From a virus, in IMG/VR virus record IMGVR_UViG_3300037553_000149, positions 1 through 22,021 of that record: a DNA stretch of 22,021 bases; one strand, given 5' to 3'. The notes under the pieces are model-generated. The model ran no database searches. It worked only from the letters and a program-made list of their open reading frames with translations, and was not told the origin of the DNA. This document shows, piece after piece, positions 6,199-19,753 of the stretch (the first letter of the stretch is position 1; the number at the start of each line of letters is the position of its first letter). The position numbers and the translations under genes were made by a program.

Positions 6199-7050
6199 AT
6201 GGCAACAGTAGAGACTTATTCGATCTTTTCGGCGACACAGCCAACAGCGCTGTTGCTTGATGGCCAGGCGTTCACCCTCACCGCAGTCACGCAAAACACG
6301 CCTGTTATGCGAGGCGAGAATGTGATCCCAGCAATGGACCACGGTCTTCGGTGGCGTGAGAAGCGTATGGGTGGCCGGCAGGAAACATGGGAGATGTGGG
6401 TGTCTGGCGAATACAACTCGGCTGGGGCCCCGCTTACGGCACTTGGCGCCAGGGAGGCGCAGTTCAACGCCAACTGGGAAACCCTGATGGGTGCGCTCAC
6501 AACCACTAAGAAGGCGGATGGTTTCGACGCCCCGTTGAAGGTTATGAGGACGATGAAGTTCACGCCGGCTAGCCCTACGACCGTGTACAGGTTGAACTAC
6601 GGCGAAGTCAACGGGCCGATCTCCACAGGGGATCACGGCACGTGGAATCACACACAGTTCTCCGTGCCGATTCTGTATGTCGATCCTCGCTGGTATTTGT
6701 GCAACTCGTCTGGGGTCAAAATCGCCGCAACACCGATCACCGGTGTCACCGATCCTGGTGGGACGGCTCTAATGACCGACATGGTGATAACCCTGACCAC
6801 TGTTGGTGCCGATAGGACCATCACGAACGCCACGACGGGGAGCACACTGACGTTCTCCGGCACCAACAGTGGGACTATCGTGATCGACACAAAGAACTAC
6901 ACGGTGACAGACGGCGGGAGCAACGCCATCGGTTCTTTGACCCGTTCAGGGTCGTCAACGACCGACTGGTTTCAGTTGCTTCCAGGTGTTTCTAACGCCA
7001 TCTCTTCCAACTCGGCGTTTTCGATTGCGTATACTAAAGCGTATATCTGA
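6199..7050 (+). CDS. Distal tail protein (Dit-like)
   Basis: A 283-residue protein between the tape measure and the hub protein, the position of Dit, which forms the hexameric ring joining tail tube and baseplate. The N-terminal half has the mixed charged pattern of the belt domain (GLRWREKRMGGRQETWEMWVSG near residues 49-70, and WNHTQFSVPILYVDPRWY near 150-170). The C-terminal 100 residues are threonine- and serine-rich beta strands ending WFQLLPGVSNAI, the W-x-L-x-P-G-x-N signature of Dit galectin-like domains. AAGGAG lies six bases before the ATG. The stop TGA overlaps the next ATG by one base, so translation of the hub protein is probably coupled. Confidence is good for the role and lower for the exact subfamily. 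Confidence 0.75.
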   Translation: MATVETYSIFSATQPTALLLDGQAFTLTAVTQNTPVMRGENVIPAMDHGLRWREKRMGGRQETWEMWVSGEYNSAGAPLTALGAREAQFNANWETLMGALTTTKKADGFDAPLKVMRTMKFTPASPTTVYRLNYGEVNGPISTGDHGTWNHTQFSVPILYVDPRWYLCNSSGVKIAATPITGVTDPGGTALMTDMVITLTTVGADRTITNATTGSTLTFSGTNSGTIVIDTKNYTVTDGGSNAIGSLTRSGSSTTDWFQLLPGVSNAISSNSAFSIAYTKAYI

Positions 7051-10000
7051 TGCCAGATGTCGCCCCGTGGGACATTTGGGTTGTCAACGCCACCACGCTG
7101 GCGAAGGTCGCCTACGTCTCAAACTGGAATGACTGCACATTCGGGGATCAGGTCAACGACCCTGGTCACGGCGCAGTCAACCTCGATTATGACGAGCCCT
7201 GGCTAACCACCTTCTACAACGACAACAGCGAGTTCCCCTGGGAAGGGAACTACGCCGTTCAGATTTACCGCAGTGGGTCTCTGGTTTTCACGTTCCTGAT
7301 CGAAGAGGCCGAAATCGAGTACGCGGGGCCACGCCGACGCGCCGTTATGGGTGGTCGCGGGTTGGCTGCTTGCCTGGAATGGGCGATTGTCATTCCCGAG
7401 AAGTACGACGATGGCCTTGTTGTAAGTGGCAACCTTGACCCTGACGCCCTTGTTGAGGTTATGGGCAGAGGGTTCGGAGCCACCCACAACGTGCAGGCCG
7501 ACCTGGAAACGCAGGCTGGGGACACGATGCCCAGGCACGGCACCATGGGCGACCCAGAGTCGTATCACGGGCCGAAGTACAAGGCTTACGGCGGTGGGGC
7601 GTTCGTCCACCTATTCAATGAAGCAAACACCGGCCTGCCGGCCACAACGGCCCTGTGGTTGGACACCGATTCGACGCCAGGCGGCACCCGTGGTGTCGAA
7701 GCCTGGACGACTGTCACCCTGGCGACCCTCGTTGGTGGGGGTGGTGCCGGCGACCGTAACGGCGACGCCGTTGATTGGCCTCTGAGCCTGTCATCGAACC
7801 TGTCCGAGCGGTACGACTCGAACGGCACGAGCACAGCCAACGAATGGAGTTACACGAGTACCTACACCGCCGATGACGTTCAGTGGCTGTTCGATTTACA
7901 GACAGGGCAGAACTACTTCCAGGTGCTCAACGAGTGTGTCGCCAAGACGGCCAACTCGCAGTGGAGGGTCGCCCCCAACGGCGAGATTTCGATAGCGAAA
8001 CTTCTCGGCTCTGACCTGTCAGCCACCGTGATGCTCACCGTCCCGCAGGCAGTTCGTTCTGCTAACTCGCTTCGCCGCACCGACCTGCGGACCTCCATGT
8101 TCATCTCCAACGATTTCGTCTTCGAGAGGGCAAACGACACAACCGCTGAGGCTACGTATGGCCGGCGGGAAGGGTTCGTCAAGTACGACAACACCCATGG
8201 CCAGTCGAACATCGACGCAGCCAATCAGGCTCTGAACGAGGTCAAGGATGTCCTCGATGAGTTCACGTTTCAGTACGTCGAAACGGACACCACGGAGGCG
8301 TGGACTGACTTCGGCATTTCTGACACGGTCAAGATCGAGTACGAACCTGGCGTCTTCTCATCCCGCCAGGTTGTCGGGCTCTCAGCAAATGTCAGCCCAG
8401 AAGAGTTCGCTGTTGAGATAACGATCGGCGAGGTCGTCGACAACGTCATTGCCCGCTTGAGGAAGGTGGAGGAAACCGAGCAGTATTCCCCGCAGATCAC
8501 CCAGGCGAACGCCTATTCGAGTGGCAAGCCAATGGCGCCGCTCAACATTGTCGCCGTCGCTGGGCAGGAGGGCGGGGACCGGTTCGCGACGGTCACCTTT
8601 GACCAGCCGAAGGGCTGGGAGAACGAAATGCTGCTGTATGAAGCCGTGGTCAATCCGGTCGACGCTCCCACGAAGACGTACCGGCGGACCACGTCAGTCA
8701 ATCGCCGCAGCACCCAACAGGAAGTCGTCATTCACGGCTTACCGTCAGGGCCTGAGGGCAAGGAGTACGAGGTTAGCGCCCGGTCGGTTACCAAGACGCA
8801 ACTCATAAGCGACTACCACGTAGGGGACGACTTCACTGTCGCTGCGTCCAGTCTCGATGACGTGACAGGCGAATCCGATGCGCCTGATGAGGTGTCTGGC
8901 ATCTCATTGTTCCCGATGTTGAACGCGATCCTGGTCAAGTTCAGCGATCTGAACGGTGGGAACGATCATGCGATGGTCGGGAACCGTGGGCGCTACGAAA
9001 TCCAAATCTCGAACAACGAATCAGGGGGCACCAACGGGAGTTTCAGCGAAACCAGCGGCAACGAGTGGACTCAAACCTTCGGCCTCCAGGAGTCCGGTTG
9101 GGATGAAGACGACGCTCAGACCTTCGTCGTCCCCAGCGGAGACGGGTTCATCTGCGCTGGGTTGAAGTCGGAATCACCCGCGAGAAGGCACTTTGTCAGG
9201 GTCAGGGCGGTCAACTGGGACAACACGCCGCAGGACGACTGGTCTGTGGGTTCAGGGGAGTATTCCGAATGGGTGGACCTGGACCTCGATGACCAGTCGC
9301 AACTCGGGGTGATAATCGGCAAAGAGGGCATCTACGCAACCCACATCAAGGCTGGGACTATCGACACCACGCGTATCGACACCGGCACGCTGACAGCGTC
9401 TAACGCTGACATAGGCCAGATTTTCACCTCTGCGATCAGGATGCCGCAGCCTGCCACCGCCGAGGATGCCGGCGAGTTGAACGACGGCACAACCGGCAAC
9501 GAGATGACGTTCAACATCGACCATGACGGCAACATTTGGTGGGGGAACTACGCCGACATTGACGATGCTAAGGCGGGTACGAACGCCGACACAGCCAACG
9601 GCACTGACGCTGCAACCTCTTGGATTGACAATACGGGCGATGTCCAGTTCATAGGCAGGATTTCCACTGGTGCGGGGTCCGCAACCGACATCTTTGCGAA
9701 CGGGAACGCTGGCGAGCCCCGCATGGTCATCGGTGACAACACCACCGACCTTGGTTTCGGGGGTAGCAGCGGGGGGTACGGGTACCTGTTGGGCTTCACC
9801 GCTAACTCCCTTGAGGCCATTCCCGGTCACACCGTTTTCACAGAGGAAAGGTGGATCGACGGGGACACCTCCTCCGCTTGGACGGGTGCCGCCTACTTGG
9901 TGGCTCCTCGTTTCCATAGTGGGTTCAAGTACGCGGGGGTCAGACTTCGTGATCCATCGGGTGCTAGTGGTGACGGCGAGGCGATTTTGGTCCACCCGAA

Positions 10001-12587
10001 GGACATGGACTACATGGGTCTCATCATGGGGGCGAGGCCCGAAGCCACCGGCACCGCCTACGCCGAGGTAACGGGTGTCGTTACCGCTCCCGGCGGGTTC
10101 AAGATCACAAGCCACGCCATCGCTACCGGTACGCCCGGTGGGTTGACGTTGGATTCCGGCACTCCGGCTACTGGTGATGACGACACCGGTGCGGCCAGGG
10201 TCAAGTTGTGGAACGACGGTGGTGACCTCATGTGGGGCGACACCAACGTCGGTGGTGGCAGTGGCGACATCACTGCGGTGACCACGGCCGCGACCTCCGG
10301 CTTGGCGGGCGGGGTACTTACAGGGGCCGCTGATTTGAGTCTCGATTTCAACGGTTTGGATACTGGGACTTCTGTGGTGGCAGGGGGCCTTGCTTCCGAC
10401 TATGTGGCCTTCTACGACTCCTCAACCAGTTCTCACAAGAAGGTCCGATTTGCCAACATCGCCCATTCGTGGTTCAAGGCGGATGGGTTGGCCGACATGG
10501 GTTCAAGTAACACGGCCACATCCGATTTGTTGATGGTTTATGACGACAGTGCGAGTCTCGCCAAGAAGGTCGATCTCGCTGAAATCATCGCTTTGAGCCC
10601 ACAGGGCACCGTTACAGCGGTCGACGTGGTCGCCGATCGCGGCTTGTACCTGTCGGGGGCATCCAGCCCAACCCCGTCTATTGGGCTGAGTCTGTTGACT
10701 GCTTTGGATGAGATCACCCCGGTCGTTGGCGATTGGGTGGCGATTCACGACAACTCCCTTGGCTACGCGAAGCGGGTGACGATCCAGGACATAAACGACC
10801 TGGGCCCACAGGGCGACATCGAGACTGTAACGGCAGGCTTCACGAGCGGCATGTCAGTCACCAGCGGCACAGGCCCCATCCCAGACATCTCTCTGAATCT
10901 GGGGAAACTGGGAGAAGTGCTAACCCCGACGTTGGGCGACAAGGTCGGCATTTACGACACCTCCCTCGCCACTACGGGGTACTGCACGATTCAGGACATC
11001 AACGATCTGGGTCCGCAGGGCACAGGCGACGGTGACCTCACCGCCGTAACAGTCAGTATCACGAGTGGCCTCTCCGTCACTAGCGGCACTGGCCCTATCC
11101 CAGACATCTCTCTAAACCTGGGGAAACTGACATACGCAACCCCGGTGGTCGGTGACAAGGTCGGCATTTACGACAACAGCGCCGCCGTTACGCGGTATTG
11201 CACGATTCAGAACATCCTCGACCTGGCCGCTGCTGGGGATGGTGATGTCACTGGCATCTTGACTGGCGCCACTTCCGGCCTTTATACCGTTTCTAGCGGC
11301 GGGCCAATCCCTGACATCAGGCTTGATTTGTCACGGCTGACTGCTGGAAGCCTGCACTGGGGCGACTACATAGCCATGCACGATGTCTCCGCTAGCGGGA
11401 CTTACAGGACCACCGCGCAGGATATTGCCGACATCGCCATTACCACGCACCTGACGAATGGTGGGATTTGGCAGACGGGCGCTAACGGCACAATCGGAAT
11501 CAGTTTCAGCAACATGCTCGCCTACCCGACGCCGACGACGACCGATCTTCTGATGTTCTACGACTCGTCGACCGCAGGCGTCTCGTACCAGACCATCTGG
11601 TCAATCCTCGCCCTAGCCCCACAGACCACAGCCTTCACAAATGGTGGGCTTTATACGAGCACTACTTCGTCCGCGTCCGGCACAATGAAAATCAGTTTTG
11701 GCAATATGACGTTATCGACAGCGTCAGCAGCCGATCTTCTGTGCTTCCAAATCGGCTCCTCTAACGTCGTTGGGTACAACTCCGTCGCGAACGTGCTCAA
11801 CCTGGTGGGGGGCGCAACTACCCCGGTTACGCATGACTTCTATTTGAGTGGTAGCCGCATCATTCAAGCCACTGGGAACCTCTACATGCGTAGTGGCTCG
11901 GGTGCCAACTATGGGGCTGTCGCATGGTCAAATGGCGTGACAAGCCTTTATTACGCGACTGGTACTCAGTTGCAGACTGGCACCAGCGGCGTTTCGATCC
12001 ACGGCGTCAATCTCTGGCCCTCCACCCACAACACCCAGAATCTTGGGTTGTCGGGGAACTGGTGGAAGTATTCGTACCACTACAAGATGGACGCTTCGGT
12101 GTTGCCCAGTTGGTCTGGTACCGGTTGGTACATGTGGATAAACGACGCCGATCAGGTGATGAGAGCGACATCATCGGAGCGTGTCAAGACGGGCGTCACC
12201 ACGATTTCGCCAACGGACGCCTTGGCTCGAATCAAGGGTCTCCGGCCTGTTGAGTTCACACCCACGAACAACCCGAGTGATCTGGTAATCGACGACCTGT
12301 GGCAGTATGAGCGTTTCAAGGGCTTCATCGCAGAAGAGGTGGCGGTGGTAGACCACGATTACGGCGTGTGGAACTGGTGGAAGTCGGATGACCCTGAGAG
12401 CGAGGGCTACGACAAGACGCTGCCTAGCCTCTGTTCGATCCAAGACGAGTGGACCGAAGAAGAGGTCACCGCCTACTACGATCTTGACAAAGCGAACCCT
12501 GTCATGTTCGATGTCCACGCCATTTTGGCCGACTCTGTCGCTGCCATTCAGGCGCTAGAGGCCCGCATCGCGGTCCTGGAAAGTTAG
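7050..12587 (+). CDS. Baseplate hub-tail fibre fusion with C-terminal peptidase S74 chaperone
   Basis: This 1,845-residue protein appears to join hub, fibre and receptor-binding functions. Residues 1-480 resemble the Gp37-like hub family of siphoviruses (start PWDIWVVNATT, then a beta-rich fold with GGRGLAACLEW). Residues about 494-590 and 610-747 look like fibronectin type III domains. Residues 752-789 are a fibre-shaft linker (GIYATHIKAGTIDTTRID). Residues about 800-1090 are a glycine-rich beta region. Residues 1117-1580 carry eight bead repeats, listed separately. From about 1600 the chain leads to an S74 intramolecular chaperone starting at Ser1708. Serine 1708 and Lys1713 (SSERVK) match the catalytic dyad spacing of endosialidase-type chaperones, so the last 138 residues are probably cut off after trimerisation. 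The start overlaps the Dit stop. A single polypeptide with both ends is unusual, because hub and fibre are often separate genes. Confidence 0.85.
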   Translation: MPDVAPWDIWVVNATTLAKVAYVSNWNDCTFGDQVNDPGHGAVNLDYDEPWLTTFYNDNSEFPWEGNYAVQIYRSGSLVFTFLIEEAEIEYAGPRRRAVMGGRGLAACLEWAIVIPEKYDDGLVVSGNLDPDALVEVMGRGFGATHNVQADLETQAGDTMPRHGTMGDPESYHGPKYKAYGGGAFVHLFNEANTGLPATTALWLDTDSTPGGTRGVEAWTTVTLATLVGGGGAGDRNGDAVDWPLSLSSNLSERYDSNGTSTANEWSYTSTYTADDVQWLFDLQTGQNYFQVLNECVAKTANSQWRVAPNGEISIAKLLGSDLSATVMLTVPQAVRSANSLRRTDLRTSMFISNDFVFERANDTTAEATYGRREGFVKYDNTHGQSNIDAANQALNEVKDVLDEFTFQYVETDTTEAWTDFGISDTVKIEYEPGVFSSRQVVGLSANVSPEEFAVEITIGEVVDNVIARLRKVEETEQYSPQITQANAYSSGKPMAPLNIVAVAGQEGGDRFATVTFDQPKGWENEMLLYEAVVNPVDAPTKTYRRTTSVNRRSTQQEVVIHGLPSGPEGKEYEVSARSVTKTQLISDYHVGDDFTVAASSLDDVTGESDAPDEVSGISLFPMLNAILVKFSDLNGGNDHAMVGNRGRYEIQISNNESGGTNGSFSETSGNEWTQTFGLQESGWDEDDAQTFVVPSGDGFICAGLKSESPARRHFVRVRAVNWDNTPQDDWSVGSGEYSEWVDLDLDDQSQLGVIIGKEGIYATHIKAGTIDTTRIDTGTLTASNADIGQIFTSAIRMPQPATAEDAGELNDGTTGNEMTFNIDHDGNIWWGNYADIDDAKAGTNADTANGTDAATSWIDNTGDVQFIGRISTGAGSATDIFANGNAGEPRMVIGDNTTDLGFGGSSGGYGYLLGFTANSLEAIPGHTVFTEERWIDGDTSSAWTGAAYLVAPRFHSGFKYAGVRLRDPSGASGDGEAILVHPKDMDYMGLIMGARPEATGTAYAEVTGVVTAPGGFKITSHAIATGTPGGLTLDSGTPATGDDDTGAARVKLWNDGGDLMWGDTNVGGGSGDITAVTTAATSGLAGGVLTGAADLSLDFNGLDTGTSVVAGGLASDYVAFYDSSTSSHKKVRFANIAHSWFKADGLADMGSSNTATSDLLMVYDDSASLAKKVDLAEIIALSPQGTVTAVDVVADRGLYLSGASSPTPSIGLSLLTALDEITPVVGDWVAIHDNSLGYAKRVTIQDINDLGPQGDIETVTAGFTSGMSVTSGTGPIPDISLNLGKLGEVLTPTLGDKVGIYDTSLATTGYCTIQDINDLGPQGTGDGDLTAVTVSITSGLSVTSGTGPIPDISLNLGKLTYATPVVGDKVGIYDNSAAVTRYCTIQNILDLAAAGDGDVTGILTGATSGLYTVSSGGPIPDIRLDLSRLTAGSLHWGDYIAMHDVSASGTYRTTAQDIADIAITTHLTNGGIWQTGANGTIGISFSNMLAYPTPTTTDLLMFYDSSTAGVSYQTIWSILALAPQTTAFTNGGLYTSTTSSASGTMKISFGNMTLSTASAADLLCFQIGSSNVVGYNSVANVLNLVGGATTPVTHDFYLSGSRIIQATGNLYMRSGSGANYGAVAWSNGVTSLYYATGTQLQTGTSGVSIHGVNLWPSTHNTQNLGLSGNWWKYSYHYKMDASVLPSWSGTGWYMWINDADQVMRATSSERVKTGVTTISPTDALARIKGLRPVEFTPTNNPSDLVIDDLWQYERFKGFIAEEVAVVDHDYGVWNWWKSDDPESEGYDKTLPSLCSIQDEWTEEEVTAYYDLDKANPVMFDVHAILADSVAAIQALEARIAVLES
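10398..11815 (+). repeat. Eight bead repeats in the tail fibre, 42-72 residues apart
   Basis: The motif (G/S)D-hydrophobic-x-(I/F/V)-(Y/H)-D-x-S followed after about 10 residues by a helix such as TIQDINDL recurs with its first Asp codon at 10398, 10524, 10731, 10938, 11154, 11364, 11544 and 11733. Spacings are 126, 207, 207, 216, 210, 180 and 189 bases. Repeats 3-5 are the most alike and are separated by near-identical SGTGPIPDISLNLGKL strands. Repeats 7 and 8 have diverged and repeat 8 has lost the Asp-x-Ser part. Similar bead repeats occur in fibres of environmental phages and probably form a trimeric shaft. The number of repeats is likely to vary between related phages. Confidence 0.75.
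10857..11129 (+). repeat. 54-base direct repeat pair with only silent differences
   Basis: Bases 10857-10910 and 11076-11129 differ at 5 of 54 positions. All five are third codon positions (ACC/ACT, ACA/ACT, CCC/CCT, CTG/CTA, AAT/AAC), so the encoded 18 residues are identical. It lies between bead repeats 3-4 and 4-5. This is a segmental duplication under protein-level constraint. Confidence 0.85.
12171..12587 (+). other. Peptidase S74 (endosialidase-type) intramolecular chaperone domain
   Basis: The last 138 codons of the fibre gene encode the domain that trimerises the fibre and then cuts itself off. Visible marks are SSERVKTGVTTI at the start (Ser1708 nucleophile, Lys1713), ALARIKGLRPVEF, then FKGFIAEEVAVVD, and a C-terminal coiled coil (VAAIQALEARIAVLES). 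The order S-x4-K, L-R-P-V-x-F, G-F-I-A-E-E-V and a terminal coiled coil matches the family. Cleavage is expected between Thr1707 and Ser1708. Confidence 0.85.
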
Positions 12588-13298: not shown

Positions 13299-14003
13299 AT
13301 GGCGCAGATTGCCGAAGACTACGTATCACCTTCCGTCCGTTGGGGGGTCCTCAAGCAGGACTACCCCGAAGCGATCGCCGAGTTTTCCGAGATGACGGGA
13401 GTCGAACTTGGCATCCCCGAGAAGTTCGGGGGCTCCGACAACTACTGCGTCGCGCAGATTCTCCTGCGCCCCACAGACGAGTTGCCCATCGTCGGGTACA
13501 AGCCGTTCTCCGACGCCAAGTCCAACAAGAACGACCACCCGTCCGACGCGTGGAACATCTTGTGCACCAAGGCCCTGGGGCGCGCTCTCAAGAGGGCCGG
13601 TTACGCCGACACTGCTGGGGAGATGAAACTCATCGTCCAGTACAAGCGGCGGAACGCCGAACACGACGCGATTCGTGGTGGCGGTTCACCCGACGCCGAC
13701 CACGAACACGTTGTCGAGGGGCTCACCGAGAAGGTGGGGGTCCCTGAGTTCGCCGTCCACATCGAGAACGACGAGGTTGTTTACTCCGACGATTGGGAGA
13801 GCGACGAGGCGATGGCCAAGGCCCACGTCGAACTCAAGGAGATGGTCAACAATCTGCCTCTTGGCTATGCGGACTCGGCCCGTGAGGCCCACCAGAAACT
13901 CAATGGCCGGCAGTGGCCGATCATGAAGGTCAGCCAATACAACTCCGTCTTCAACACCGTCACGAATCTCCACGCTGAGGCCATAGCGGAGATGAGTGAA
14001 TGA
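13299..14003 (+). CDS. Putative DNA single-strand annealing protein (ERF/Rad52-like)
   Basis: A 234-residue protein that heads the early operon behind a promoter and an excellent ribosome binding site (AGGAGGAG, six bases from the ATG). Residues about 84-103 (DAWNILCTKALGRALKRAGY) have the K-A-L-x-R-A-L-K-x-x-G-Y helix seen in ERF, Sak and other phage single-strand annealing proteins. The N-terminal 110 residues alternate strands and helices as in their cores, and the C-terminal part, after an acidic linker, forms a separate helical domain. Such proteins anneal complementary strands and promote recombination-dependent replication. Neighbours support this: a HIRAN protein, a RusA resolvase and a HARP-SNF2 helicase. 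It could instead be another single-strand DNA binding or replication protein. The stop overlaps the next start (ATGA). Confidence 0.5.
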   Translation: MAQIAEDYVSPSVRWGVLKQDYPEAIAEFSEMTGVELGIPEKFGGSDNYCVAQILLRPTDELPIVGYKPFSDAKSNKNDHPSDAWNILCTKALGRALKRAGYADTAGEMKLIVQYKRRNAEHDAIRGGGSPDADHEHVVEGLTEKVGVPEFAVHIENDEVVYSDDWESDEAMAKAHVELKEMVNNLPLGYADSAREAHQKLNGRQWPIMKVSQYNSVFNTVTNLHAEAIAEMSE

Positions 14004-14344
14004 AGTCCCCGTTTGAGGTCCCGGTTGCCGGCGTGACGTTCCGCCCTGGTTACCCGAAGAACCTTTGGGACATCGCCGGTGCCATGGTCGAAGTGTTTGG
14101 CAAGACGCCGAGGGTCATAGCGACTCTCGTCAGGGAGCCTGAGAACGAACACGACCCGAACGCCATCAAGGTGCTCGTCGCCGCCGAGCATGTCGGTTAC
14201 ATCCCGTCACGCGAGGCTGGCGGGCTGGCCCCCCTAATGGACGCTGGCGAACGGTGGTGTGGTCTGGTAGACCGTCTTGTCGTTTCACCCGAGAACCCAG
14301 AACAACCTGGGCTGAGAGTAAAGGTGGTCAAGGATGAATCTTGA
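14000..14344 (+). CDS. Stand-alone HIRAN domain protein
   Basis: A 114-residue protein consisting almost wholly of a HIRAN domain. The family signature is plain: VAGVTFR near residue 10, a central LVREPENEHDPNAIKVLV (residues about 43-60), HVGYIPSREAGGLAPLMDAG (about 64-84). HIRAN domains bind 3' ends of single-stranded DNA at stalled forks; in eukaryotes the domain is fused to the SNF2 fork-remodelling helicase HLTF. Here it is separate, while a HARP-SNF2 helicase is encoded about 3.2 kb downstream. It overlaps the preceding gene (ATGA) and the following one by 11 bases, so translation is tightly coupled. Function in this phage is inferred. Confidence 0.85.
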   Translation: MKSPFEVPVAGVTFRPGYPKNLWDIAGAMVEVFGKTPRVIATLVREPENEHDPNAIKVLVAAEHVGYIPSREAGGLAPLMDAGERWCGLVDRLVVSPENPEQPGLRVKVVKDES

Positions 14345-14921
14345 CGAACGGATAGCCGAGATTGACGCGATGGCAGGGGAACTCCGCAGGTCGCTCGACA
14401 TGGCGATCGCCGAGGCCAAGGAGAACGCCGAGGACGCCGTCTATGGCCCCGAGGACACCCTCCAGGGCACTGCGAACTCGATGGTGGACCTCTTGGAGGT
14501 CATCAAGGCCCACAAGTCGGTGATGCGCGACGTGGACAACGAAGCGAATCCGACGCTGGTGTCGATCATGGACAACCTGGGGACCCGCAAGTTCGAGAGG
14601 GGTGGGCTCCTTGTTGAGAAGAAGCAGTCGTCCTACCGCTCCAACTGGCAGAACAACGTCCTTGTCCGGTCAGTGGTGAATACCGCCATGGACGAGATTG
14701 CCGACCGTGAGTACGTCGATCAGGAGACTGGGGAACCGATCAGCGAGCGCGCCATTCTGGCCCCGTGGATCGAAGCCATCGTGGAGCGTCTGCTGGAGTG
14801 TGCTGCGTTCCGTGACTGGCGTGTCACCGCCTTGCGTGCCCGTGTCCCTGGGCTCGATCCAGACAACTTTTGTGACGTGAAGCGTTCCACTAAGGCGACG
14901 ATTTCCAGGGTCAAGAACTGA
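14334..14921 (+). CDS. Hypothetical protein of the replication operon, 195 residues
   Basis: A helical, acidic protein. Residues 1-70 form a long predicted helical stretch (NLDERIAEIDAMAGELRRSL, then VDLLEVIKAHKSVMRDVDNE). Residues about 80-110 hold a basic/aromatic segment (FERGGLLVEKKQSSYRSNWQ) of a kind often found in early proteins of actinophages beside annealing and nuclease genes: a short beta hairpin, then K-x-S-S-x-R-x-x-W. I do not know a biochemical function for it. No cysteine cluster, membrane span or nuclease motif is visible. The start lies inside the end of the HIRAN gene and its stop shares a base with the next ATG (TGATG), placing it firmly in the operon. A role as a partner of the annealing protein is possible but unproven. 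Confidence 0.75.
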   Translation: MNLDERIAEIDAMAGELRRSLDMAIAEAKENAEDAVYGPEDTLQGTANSMVDLLEVIKAHKSVMRDVDNEANPTLVSIMDNLGTRKFERGGLLVEKKQSSYRSNWQNNVLVRSVVNTAMDEIADREYVDQETGEPISERAILAPWIEAIVERLLECAAFRDWRVTALRARVPGLDPDNFCDVKRSTKATISRVKN

Positions 14922-15673
14922 TGGCGATTGAAGTCATGGTCTGGGTTCTGGAGCAGGACAGGAACATCACGACAAACGAGAAGTTCGTTCTCCTGGGGAT
15001 CGCCAATCACAGCCGGCCAGATGGCACGAACGCGTTTCCTTCGTTAGACACCCTCGCTCGGTACACGCTGCTATCTCGTTCGACGGTACAAAGGTGCATC
15101 AAGGAGTTGTTGAGTAAGGGTTTCCTGACCTACGAACCAGGCGGGGGCAGAAAGTCAAACACATACATAGTGACAATGAACTATGCCAAAGTCACCCGTT
15201 TAGAGGTTCTTGAGGGGGGTCAGAGTGACACCCCTACAGGGTCAGGCTCTGACCCGGCAGCAGAGTCAAGCCTTGAACTGGCAGCAGGGTCAGGCTCTGA
15301 CCAAGGAACCGTAATAGAACCGTTATCTACCGAAATAGAACCTCGCGCAAAGAAACGCGACGAGGTCTGGGACGCGATCATGGAAGCATGTGGAGTCAAT
15401 ACTGCGACGATCAACTCCAACGAGCGCGGTCGCTACAACAAGGCCGTGAAACTACTCAAGGAGTCCGGTGCCACCGGCGCCCAGATTCACACGCGGGTGC
15501 AGGTGTATCGCCGCAAGTTCAAGGGCGCCTCTGTCACCCCGGTGGCCATCGCCAACCACTGGTCTGAGTTGGACCCGGCGACAGTGAAGGTCGAAGATGT
15601 AGTTTCAGCCCCAAAGGGTTGGGATGCAATTAGGCAAGCGAGGGAGGCCCGCGATGGGCAACATCAGACTTGA
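14921..15673 (+). CDS. Replication-initiator-like winged helix-turn-helix protein
   Basis: A 250-residue protein in three parts. Residues about 17-80 are a winged helix-turn-helix of the kind found in phage initiators: LNEK-type opening (TTNEKFVLLGIANHS), NAFPSLDTLARYTLLSRSTVQRCIKELLSKGFLTYE, then a basic wing. Residues about 97-130 are a low-complexity Gly/Ser/Asp/Ala linker encoded by the DNA repeats described separately. Residues about 145-250 are helical and end TPVAIANHWSEL, a C-terminal arrangement common to phage HTH replication proteins. Like lambda O, it is expected to bind repeats within its own gene and recruit the helicase through a loader; a loader candidate is encoded 0.6 kb downstream. 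A purely regulatory role cannot be excluded. The start shares a base with the previous stop. Confidence 0.7.
   Translation: MAIEVMVWVLEQDRNITTNEKFVLLGIANHSRPDGTNAFPSLDTLARYTLLSRSTVQRCIKELLSKGFLTYEPGGGRKSNTYIVTMNYAKVTRLEVLEGGQSDTPTGSGSDPAAESSLELAAGSGSDQGTVIEPLSTEIEPRAKKRDEVWDAIMEACGVNTATINSNERGRYNKAVKLLKESGATGAQIHTRVQVYRRKFKGASVTPVAIANHWSELDPATVKVEDVVSAPKGWDAIRQAREARDGQHQT
15219..15302 (+). repeat. Four palindromic iterons within the initiator gene (candidate origin)
   Basis: Four units, each an inverted repeat around a three-base centre, have centres at 15224, 15247, 15271 and 15295, a period of 23, 24 and 24 bases. Units 2 and 4 are GGGTCAG-GCT-CTGACC(C). Unit 1 is GTCA-GAG-TGAC. Unit 3 is TCAA-GCC-TTGA, where both arms have changed together so pairing is kept. 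They encode an eight-residue protein repeat (GSGSDPAA, ESSLELAA, GSGSDQGT). Regular palindromic iterons inside an initiator gene are the layout of lambda and related origins. They could instead be operator sites. Confidence 0.65.
15303..15355 (+). other. AT-richer stretch after the iterons, possible unwinding element
   Basis: Just downstream of the iterons, 15303-15355 is visibly richer in A and T than its surroundings and contains the short direct repeats AATAGAACC (ending near 15320 and 15342) and repeated GAACC. In iteron origins an AT-rich element next to the repeats is where strands open. The contrast is modest, so support comes mainly from position. Confidence 0.4.
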
Positions 15674-16724: not shown

Positions 16725-17099
16725 GTGGCCAAGCATTGGACGCTCGTTATCGAGGGACCGTTATTCACGCTCAACAGTGAACGGGGCATGCACTATCACA
16801 AGAGGGCGAAACTCACTAAGACGTGGAGGGAGGCGGCGTTCGAGGCCGCCCTGGCCGCAGGGGTCCCAAAGATGAAGACAATCGACATCCTGTGTATTCC
16901 CCATCGGAAGAATCGACGCAACATGGCCGACACGGGTGGGCACTTCCCGGTGGCGAAGGCGTGTATTGACGGGCTGGTTGACGCTGGGGTTATCCCTGAC
17001 GATGGACCCAACTTTGTCAAGTCGCTAGAGTTCAGGTCGCCAGTAGTGGATGGTGGGGAAGACAGGGTGATGTTGTACATCACGGAGCGTTCCAGGTGA
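16725..17099 (+). CDS. RusA-family Holliday junction resolvase
   Basis: A 124-residue endonuclease that should cut four-way DNA junctions. The RusA pattern is clear: N-terminal strand and loop with LNSERGMHYHKRAKLTKTW, a basic strand with RKNRRNMADTGGHFPVAKAC, then IDGLVDAGVIPDDGPNFV with the acidic residues that bind metal (Asp of MADTG, Asp of IDG, the DD pair), and a final strand. Length is typical of the family. The GTG start has AAGGTG five bases upstream; the ATG two bases earlier is in another frame. It ends in GTGA, overlapping the HTH gene. With the annealing protein and SNF2 helicase it would process recombination or reversed-fork intermediates before packaging. Confidence 0.85.
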   Translation: MAKHWTLVIEGPLFTLNSERGMHYHKRAKLTKTWREAAFEAALAAGVPKMKTIDILCIPHRKNRRNMADTGGHFPVAKACIDGLVDAGVIPDDGPNFVKSLEFRSPVVDGGEDRVMLYITERSR

Positions 17100-17489: not shown

Positions 17490-17524
17490 TTGTAGGTCGG
17501 GTCACCTGCCGGTAGAGTGTGGTC
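17490..17524 (+). promoter_or_regulatory. Promoter P2, leaderless type, before the SNF2 helicase
   Basis: TTGTAG at 17490-17495 and TAGAGT at 17513-17518 are separated by exactly 17 bases. Six bases (GTGGTC) follow before ATG 17525, so transcription would start on the A of the start codon. No Shine-Dalgarno site is present. The segment GTCACCTGCCGGTAG is shared with P3 at 15 of 16 aligned positions including one flanking base. Confidence 0.6.
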
Positions 17525-19753
17525 ATGACTGACACACTGACTCAAGACACAACCAAGGAAGCCATCTGGATGGCCGTCGTTGCCCTCTCGTCGAACTGCG
17601 ACGGGGCCAGGGAACAGGACGGTGTCGGGTTCAACGGAACGGACGCCCCATTTGGGAATCGCGCCGCCGAAATGGCGTCCTCCCAGTGGTCTGACGCTCT
17701 CACCTACGAGGCGTACACCATGCTCGCCAAGTACGGCAAACAGTTGGAGGACTACGGCTACGTCTATGCCGAACTCCCTGTCCCGAAGAAGGTCCTAGGC
17801 GACGGCCGCGACGACGCCCGTCAGGCCGAGCGCAAGCGCAAGTCAGCCGACTCCCGTGTGATCGACAAGATCGTCGATGGACATTTCGTCATCACCTCCA
17901 CCTATGACACCGCGCTGGTTGCCCAGTTGCGGAAGATCACCGGCGCCCACTGGGTGCCCGACGCGCAGAAGTGGTTCGCCCCCGTCGAGCAGGGTGCCAA
18001 GGTCCGCACGTTCGTCGAGACCAACGGCTTCCGCACCAGCCCCGAGGTCCAGGCGCAACTCGACAAGTTCGAGGTCGTCTCGGCTGAGGAACTGACCAGG
18101 GTCAAGCGGGACCTCCGCTTCGAGGGCGGCACGTTCGTTATGGACTTCGACTACGACCCCTACCTCGTTGAGGCCGTCAAGGACCTTGCTGGTCGACGGT
18201 GGGACACGAAGCGCAAGGTGTGGACCCTGCCCGCCGTGATGGCTCAGTCGGTGGTTGCCCTCGCTGTGAACTTTGACTTCGACTTTGACCCGACGATCCA
18301 GGCGCAGGCCATCGAGATGAACTCCCAGGCCGAACGCCGCGCTGTTGCTTCTGAGGCCGACACGTCAACCCTCCACATCCCAGGGATGGGCGACAAGCAC
18401 CCCCTGACCGGTGAGAAGTTGGCCCTGCACCCGTTCCAGGTGGCAGGCGTCGCTTACGCCGTCGACACGAAGCGCTGTTTCATCGCCGACGAAATGGGCC
18501 TAGGCAAATCAGTCCAGTCATTGGCCTCAGTCCAACACGAAAATGCGTACCCCTTGCTGATCGTGTGCCCTGCCACGTTGAAGCACAACTGGGAGCGCGA
18601 GGTCCGCATGTGGCTCCCAGGCAAGACCGTTCACATCGTCGACAACAAGGTCGGTGTGAAGAACTCAGATGTGGTGATTATCAACTACGACATCCTTGAC
18701 AAGCAGAAGGAAGCCCTCAACGCTGTCGGCTTCCAGTCGCTGGTGTTCGATGAGAGCCACTACGCCAAGAACGCCGCCGCGAAGCGCACGAAGGCCCTCA
18801 AGGAGATCGCTGAGGGCATCCCGGTCATGGTGCTGGCCCTCACCGGCACCCCCGTCCTGAACCGCCCCGTCGAGTTGGTTTCACAGTTGGAGATTCTCGG
18901 ACGGATCGAAGATTTCGGTGGCCCGTGGAACTTCAAGAAGCGCTACTGCAACGCCCAGAGGAACGGCTACGGCTGGGACTTCAATGGCGCCTCCAACACC
19001 GAAGAGTTGAACGCTCTCCTGCGGCGCACCTGCTACGTGCGTCGCCAGAAGGAGGACGTGATGAAGGAACTGCCACCCAAGGCCAAGTACACCATCGAGA
19101 CCGACCTCTCGACGGCGAAGGCCAAGGAGTACAGGGCGATGGAGTCGGACACGATCGTGTGGCTCGCAGAAGAGGGTCGCAACTCTGAGTACGCCGACGC
19201 TTTGGCGAAGATCATGATTCTCAAGCGTCTCGCCGGCGAAGGCAAGATTGACGCGGCGATGGAATGGATCGACACGTTCCTCGACAGCACCAGTCGCAAG
19301 TTGGTCGTGTTCGCCCACCACAAGGCCGTCGTGAATGCCCTGGCCGACAAGTACGGCGGGATGAGGGTCGCTGGCGCCGATTCGATGAAGGCCCGCCAGG
19401 AAGTGATCGACAAGTTCCAGAGCGACGACGACGCCCGTGTGATCGTCCTGAACATGAAGGCTGGAGGTGTCGGCATCACGCTTACGGCCGCATCCGACGT
19501 TCTGTTCGTTGAGCAGGGCTGGACCCCCGCTGAGCATGACCAGGCCACTGATCGCTGTCACCGAATCGGACAGGACGCCTCGGTGGTGTCGTCGTGGTAT
19601 CTGCTGGCTGACGGTACGATCGACGACGACATCTTCGAGTTGATCGAAGCCAAGAGGATCGTGGTGGATGCTGTGACTGATGGTGAAGACGATCTGGCCG
19701 TGTCGGTGATGAACGGCCTCATCGACAAGTTGGTGAAGCGGGCCAATGACTGA
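17525..19753 (+). CDS. HARP-SNF2 family DNA annealing helicase/translocase
   Basis: A 742-residue ATP-driven DNA translocase. Residues 1-80 form an N-terminal domain with NCDGAREQDGVGFNGTD, common to actinobacterial members. Residues about 117-175 and 192-250 are two HARP-like repeats (WVPDAQKWFAPV and RRWDTKRKVWTLP), the part that gives SMARCAL1 its strand-annealing activity. The motor follows: motif I DEMGLGKS at 322-329, DESH box at 409-412, motif III LTGTP, motif V AGGVGITLTAAS, motif VI QATDRCHRIGQ at 673-683. All catalytic motifs are intact. It likely remodels forks or anneals strands together with the HIRAN and annealing proteins. ATG 17525 is preferred over GTG 17519 because of the leaderless promoter. 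Its end overlaps the next gene by eight bases. Confidence 0.92.
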   Translation: MTDTLTQDTTKEAIWMAVVALSSNCDGAREQDGVGFNGTDAPFGNRAAEMASSQWSDALTYEAYTMLAKYGKQLEDYGYVYAELPVPKKVLGDGRDDARQAERKRKSADSRVIDKIVDGHFVITSTYDTALVAQLRKITGAHWVPDAQKWFAPVEQGAKVRTFVETNGFRTSPEVQAQLDKFEVVSAEELTRVKRDLRFEGGTFVMDFDYDPYLVEAVKDLAGRRWDTKRKVWTLPAVMAQSVVALAVNFDFDFDPTIQAQAIEMNSQAERRAVASEADTSTLHIPGMGDKHPLTGEKLALHPFQVAGVAYAVDTKRCFIADEMGLGKSVQSLASVQHENAYPLLIVCPATLKHNWEREVRMWLPGKTVHIVDNKVGVKNSDVVIINYDILDKQKEALNAVGFQSLVFDESHYAKNAAAKRTKALKEIAEGIPVMVLALTGTPVLNRPVELVSQLEILGRIEDFGGPWNFKKRYCNAQRNGYGWDFNGASNTEELNALLRRTCYVRRQKEDVMKELPPKAKYTIETDLSTAKAKEYRAMESDTIVWLAEEGRNSEYADALAKIMILKRLAGEGKIDAAMEWIDTFLDSTSRKLVVFAHHKAVVNALADKYGGMRVAGADSMKARQEVIDKFQSDDDARVIVLNMKAGGVGITLTAASDVLFVEQGWTPAEHDQATDRCHRIGQDASVVSSWYLLADGTIDDDIFELIEAKRIVVDAVTDGEDDLAVSVMNGLIDKLVKRAND

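Follow-up and report, generated by a model that had tools for sequence, protein, structure and literature searches.

Results

A probable replication origin within the gene of its own initiator

The segment 15219–15342 of the viral fragment analysed here (IMG/VR record IMGVR_UViG_3300037553_000149, 22,021 bp, hereafter called the window) is best explained as a phage replication origin lying inside the gene of its initiator, in the part that codes for the linker, a reading to which I give a probability of about 85% on the strength of sequence comparisons. Dyad iterons occupy the linker-coding part, a segment prone to melting lies beside the last iteron, and a helicase-loader gene is found downstream (Table 1). 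This is the layout of lambda-type origins, and the proposal of such an origin inside the initiator gene, made in an earlier sequence-only reading, appears well supported by these three elements taken together.

Table 1. Coordinates of the features discussed in the text (positions in the window unless a relative is named)
Feature	Position	Strand	Remarks
O-like replication initiator, 250 aa	14921-15673	+	disordered linker between a winged helix and a helical C-terminal domain
DNA-binding winged-helix domain, residues 3-84	14927-15172	+	Pfam and AlphaFold2
Weakest 40-bp duplex in the 22-kb fragment	15151-15190	no strand	nearest-neighbour energy rank 0 of 21,982
Disordered-linker coding region, residues 96-143	15206-15349	+	holds both DNA elements; AlphaFold2 pLDDT
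Iteron 1, GTCAGAGTGAC	15219-15229	no strand	short 3-nt centre; centre at 15224
Iteron 2, GGTCAGGCTCTGACC	15240-15254	no strand	centre at 15247
Iteron 3, AGTCAAGCCTTGAAC	15264-15278	no strand	both arms altered jointly; centre at 15271
Iteron 4, GGTCAGGCTCTGACC	15288-15302	no strand	centre at 15295; 4 nt ahead of the repeat block
Phased repeat block, AACCGTAATAG-AACCGTTATC-TACCGAAATAG-AACC	15307-15342	+	starts 15307, 15318, 15328 (degenerate), 15339
G39P-like helicase loader, 104 aa	16268-16582	+	profile search, phrog_2289, Foldseek
Linker-less initiator relatives	L013:6001-6654; L015:3194-3847		

The initiator and the helicase loader

The gene that contains the array encodes an O-like initiator. 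Its product matches the Pfam families HTH_36 (E = 4e-14) and, weakly, DnaD_N (E = 1e-5), and the PHROG groups phrog_270, 1032, 8540 and 678, which are O-like groups of replication initiation proteins. The only Pfam matches at E ≤ 0.001 were HTH_36, DnaD_N, MarR_2 and IclR; neither the lambda O N-terminal family nor the RepA_N profile was matched. Among the closest structural neighbours of the winged helix are the N-terminal domains of RepA_N-type initiators (4pql, 4pt7, 5kbj). In an AlphaFold2 model of moderate overall confidence (pLDDT 72), the winged helix and a helical domain (residues 148–212) are predicted confidently, and pLDDT falls below 50 across most of residues 96–143. This disordered region coincides with the array, in agreement with the initial assignment of the repeats to the linker-coding part of a winged HTH gene.

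The assignment of a G39P-type loader to a downstream gene is upheld. SPP1 G39P (PDB 1no1) is both the best profile match of its product (E = 0.015) and the best fold match obtained with Foldseek (probability 0.99, TM-score 0.78 by target), and phrog_2289 (helicase loader) was matched in 10 of 18 relatives; the product has no match in Pfam. The gene begins about 0.6 kb 3' of the initiator gene and is kept there in all relatives examined. The window ORFs that were scanned with Pfam and PHROG include no recognisable replicative helicase, which fits recruitment of the host DnaB.

Other genes of the window were noted in passing. A small HIRAN-domain protein is encoded upstream of the initiator (14000–14344); its neighbours (13299–14003 and 14334–14921) have no family match and are conserved with it in relatives. 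The replication region also contains genes for a RusA-like resolvase (16725–17099) and an SNF2-type helicase (17519–19753). A very long tail protein of 1845 amino acids with internal repeats is encoded at 7050–12587; by eye only, the end of this ORF resembles an intramolecular chaperone (peptidase S74) domain.

Four dyad units beside a weak duplex

Direct reading of 15219–15302 bears out the four dyad units with centre-to-centre distances of 23, 24 and 24 bp. It was likewise correct that both arms of unit 3 have changed together, the peptide changing from GSGSD to ESSLE. The centres of the units in the window are GAG, GCT and C/GCC. Unit 3 is a more complete dyad in two relatives, L002 and L038, than in the window, that of L002 being the complete dyad GTCAAGCCTTGAC. 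GTCA-N5-TGAC matches twice and GTCA-N3-TGAC once in the 22 kb, in every case inside the array. Since chance reaches these counts in 19 and 34 of 100 shuffles, respectively, either motif count alone is compatible with chance, and the case is carried by the clustering of the units and by the homologues, together with the synonymous-codon null described below.

The stretch 3' of the units is indeed AT-richer, as had been remarked: its GC content is 42% (15304–15355), versus 61% for 15219–15303, and the duplex at 15304–15343 is the 20th weakest of 21,982 forty-base segments by nearest-neighbour energy. The weakest one sits within the initiator gene, just 5' of the iterons, and its weakness possibly reflects merely the codon content of the wing.

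GC skew was also considered as an origin marker. It does not turn at the array in four relatives of 38–64 kb and one of 30 kb, where its course is monotonic, up or down according to gene orientation; because it tracks the gene strand it is uninformative and was dropped.

The array is conserved as DNA

Eighteen relatives were found in IMG/VR (L001, whose protein is identical, and L018, which is partial, among them) and one in a MAG. Linker sequence and length differ among them. Over the 83 bp from 15246 to 15328 (+ strand), 66 bases are the same in L004 although the reading frame is different, compensating 1-nt indels separating the window, L002 and L003 from L004 and L038; the resulting peptides are SDPAAESSLELAAGSGSDQGTVIEPLS and LVTTQQGQALTTQQSQALTKEPLYNRP. 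When the window linker was rewritten with random synonymous codons, 0.78 palindromes were expected, against the 3 present (P = 0.033). The linkers of 16 relatives, which are not independent of one another, contain 50 palindromes versus 16.1 expected with synonymous codons. Moreover, many unrelated O-like genes show the same arrangement, iterons with a repeat block 3' of them. Conservation of the array across a frame shift, loss of the palindromes upon synonymous randomisation and recurrence of the layout make selection at the DNA level, rather than on the protein, a well-supported reading of these alignments, as the joint change in unit 3 had suggested.

The expectation that homologues which keep the linker also keep the palindromes held only in part. 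The palindromes are eroded in L012, L014, L016 and L017; the 3' repeat block is retained there. In L013 and L015, the linker, the iterons and the AACCRT block are all cleanly absent together, which implies that the protein fold does not need the linker. Neither an iteron array nor an AACCRT element is present in the rest of the 29.6-kb L013 record, and neither occurs in the short record of L015. The eroded palindromes and the lack of either element in L013 are points against the origin reading. So is the half-site separation of the iterons, which within one family is 3, 4 or 5 nt: such variability is not usual in a rigid dimer site.

A phased, oriented AACCRT block follows the iterons

The short repeats of the AT-richer stretch, initially taken as minor, in fact surpass the rest of the region in both conservation and spread. 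They conform to the consensus AACC[GA]T(C/A)A-N3 with a period of 11–12, and they form the constant part of the array within the family (for example, AGAACCGTTATATAACCGTAATATAACCGAAATAGAACC in L008). In the window, as in relatives of up to 64 kb, the AACCRT pair occurs only once per locus or contig, inside the gene and on the sense strand.

A search of viral contigs with the seed motif GAACCGTNATANAACCG returned 64 stretches. A permuted motif returned nearly as many (48), so raw counts were discarded as evidence and only location counts. Outside the window's family, 37 ORFs carry the seed motif; HTH_36 was matched in 16 of them and an O-like PHROG in 18, whereas HTH_36 was matched in none of the 38 ORFs hit by the permuted motif. 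The seed-motif genes bear differing iteron sets directly 5' of the block.

O-like genes were then sampled by protein pattern, giving 98 non-redundant genes. In 69 of the 98, two or more AACCRT copies fall within 42 nt, versus 0.6 expected from codon shuffling and none on the reverse strand; the seed proteins were motif-bearing and the genes are phylogenetically related, relatedness inflating the counts, so that 69 of 98 is not a number of independent cases. The spacing is 11 in 66 and 12 in 26 of 103 gaps (92 together). In 66 of 67 genes the block is preceded on its 5' side by repeats, repeat coverage being 0.55 upstream versus 0.03 downstream.

The block is found in all three codon phases, and its variable bases depend on the phase. 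In phase 1, where TAG, TAA or TGA could arise, position 6 is C or T in 21 of 21 cases and position 10 is mostly T; in phase 2, position 6 is A in 23 of 37 and position 10 is G in 37 of 37. This phase-dependent avoidance of stop codons marks the block as a DNA element that accommodates the constraints of coding.

Distribution of the block among phages

The three-repeat pattern, AACCRTCA-N3 twice followed by AACC, has at least 71 non-redundant matches, at least 51 of which are in sense O-like ORFs; among the matches listed, none is in an antisense O-like ORF. At least 10 of the other 20 matches listed are in genes of another initiator family, which match DnaD-like helicase-loader PHROGs. Four further matches (L323, L330, L387, L415) are in apparent DnaD-like genes truncated by contig ends. 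In the DnaD-like initiator genes of L336 (12025–12768), L327, L334, L390, L394 and L417, the obvious tandem array consists of the 11-bp repeats AACCATCA, which may themselves act as iterons in these genes. The DnaD TnnT motif was rejected as a component of the blocks, being no more frequent than base composition predicts (4.73 versus 5.06 in shuffled sequences).

Among named phages, the block is present in Pseudomonas phages D14O, phi2 and Itty13, Bordetella PHB09, Stenotrophomonas CUB19, Arthrobacter Kels and Microcystis Mvi-Yong1342-1. Enterobacteria mEp460, Klebsiella RothC and Stenotrophomonas BUCT708 have the variant AACCAGTCA. The block is doubtful in Arthrobacter Piku and was not seen in lambda O, ZF40, Aeromonas 4_D05 or Vibrio K75.

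Discussion

Alternatives to an origin

Winged-helix folds are common among repressors and dyads are typical of operator sites, so the array could be an operator through which the winged-helix protein represses its own gene, with no role in replication. I regard this as very unlikely. The array is located mid-gene rather than at a promoter, the AACCRT pair is the sole copy in up to 64 kb, and the fixed order of iterons then AACCRT, together with the low duplex stability, is origin-like. Autoregulation could nevertheless coexist with origin function. Some of the same features might instead act in the initiator mRNA, as hairpins and a spaced, C-containing sense element (a rut-like Rho site or a translational control element): the block is invariably in sense orientation, CC recurs every 11–12 nt and folding of the upstream dyads is conceivable. 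Sense orientation is expected anyway of a directional origin, however, and low duplex stability has no role in RNA. The sequence constraint on Rho sites is expected to be looser; in AACCRT the A, R and T positions are constrained as well, far more tightly than a Rho site would require. An RNA-level explanation thus seems very unlikely.

That a disordered linker tolerates change might also suggest that the repeats are nothing but codon or linker low complexity devoid of DNA function. This reading, already largely refuted, is scarcely credible, given that the DNA is conserved across a frame shift, that an 11-bp period rotates the reading frame and that codon shuffling predicts 0.6 genes where 69 are observed.

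A model for the putative origin

Under the origin reading, and with the first step modelled on lambda, initiator dimers would bind the iterons through their winged helix, and their assembly would open the adjoining weak AACCRT block. Either the initiator or a host factor would recognise the sequence of the AACCRT repeats, whether double- or single-stranded, and the repeats, with their fixed orientation, would set the site and the strand at which the loader delivers a host DnaB-type helicase. From its position, orientation, conservation and low stability, I infer that the block may be a directional unwinding or helicase-loading element. Because arrays with differing iterons have AACCRT in common, whatever reads it should be either a host factor or some conserved property of these initiators.

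Iterons within initiator genes are already known. What is added here is that another repeat, conserved in sequence and fixed in strand orientation, accompanies them; it is found in all reading frames and in phages of distant hosts. No description of such an oriented repeat was found in the literature searched by topic, which is weak evidence given that subscription papers were mostly outside the search; searching by motif string gave only unrelated matches among those listed. If functional, the AACCRT block offers an easy way to find origins in phage and prophage genomes, and it becomes possible to test what governs the opening of the strands and the loading of the helicase at lambda-like origins without a plain A/T tract.

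Comparison with known origins

The closest parallel is the lambda origin, which likewise lies in the linker region of an initiator gene (gene O). It also comprises four iterons with hyphenated dyad symmetry (starting at 39034, 39054, 39078 and 39101), directly followed 3' by a destabilised segment, with a helicase-loader gene downstream. Lambda O whose AT-rich part carries short in-frame deletions still works in trans (PMC6022878), which indicates that the linker is tolerant. Lambda has a 39–40 bp A/T tract where the window has AACCRT repeats, however, and no phased AACCRT repeat is present in lambda O. The window further differs in its HTH_36/DnaD_N-like wing domain and in its loader, which resembles G39P and not P.

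The RepA_N replicons (pSK41, pTZ2162, PLE) have the similar winged-helix N-terminal fold mentioned above and, as in the window, semi-palindromic iterons (PMC7145576). Their iterons converge on a poly-A tract, which the window array lacks, and the origin of PLE, unlike that proposed here, is non-coding. Gene 4 of the Bartonella run-off replication (ROR) region is a phage-derived O-like gene that lies upstream of a helicase gene and coincides with the maximum of chromosomal amplification (PMC3610622); like the window gene, it contains palindromes. The oriV of repABC plasmids is also within an initiator gene, repC, in which silent recoding of the A+T-rich part abolished replication (PMC3155836); unlike in the window, no iterons were found there.

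The AACCRT block itself is best compared with the DnaA-trios and the DnaD recognition element (DRE) of B. subtilis oriC, strand-specific short repeats in the unwinding region that are read by DnaD-family proteins (PMC10201434). It resembles them as a set of strand-specific short repeats in what would be an unwinding region. A tentative extension, to which I give slightly less than even odds, is that AACC[GA]T(C/A)A-N3 is a general directional origin element, shared by origins with differing iterons, by O-like and DnaD-like initiators and by phages of Actinobacteria, Proteobacteria and Cyanobacteria, and read sequence-specifically by one shared factor responsible for duplex opening or helicase placement; it would then be the phage counterpart of the DnaA-trio/DRE.
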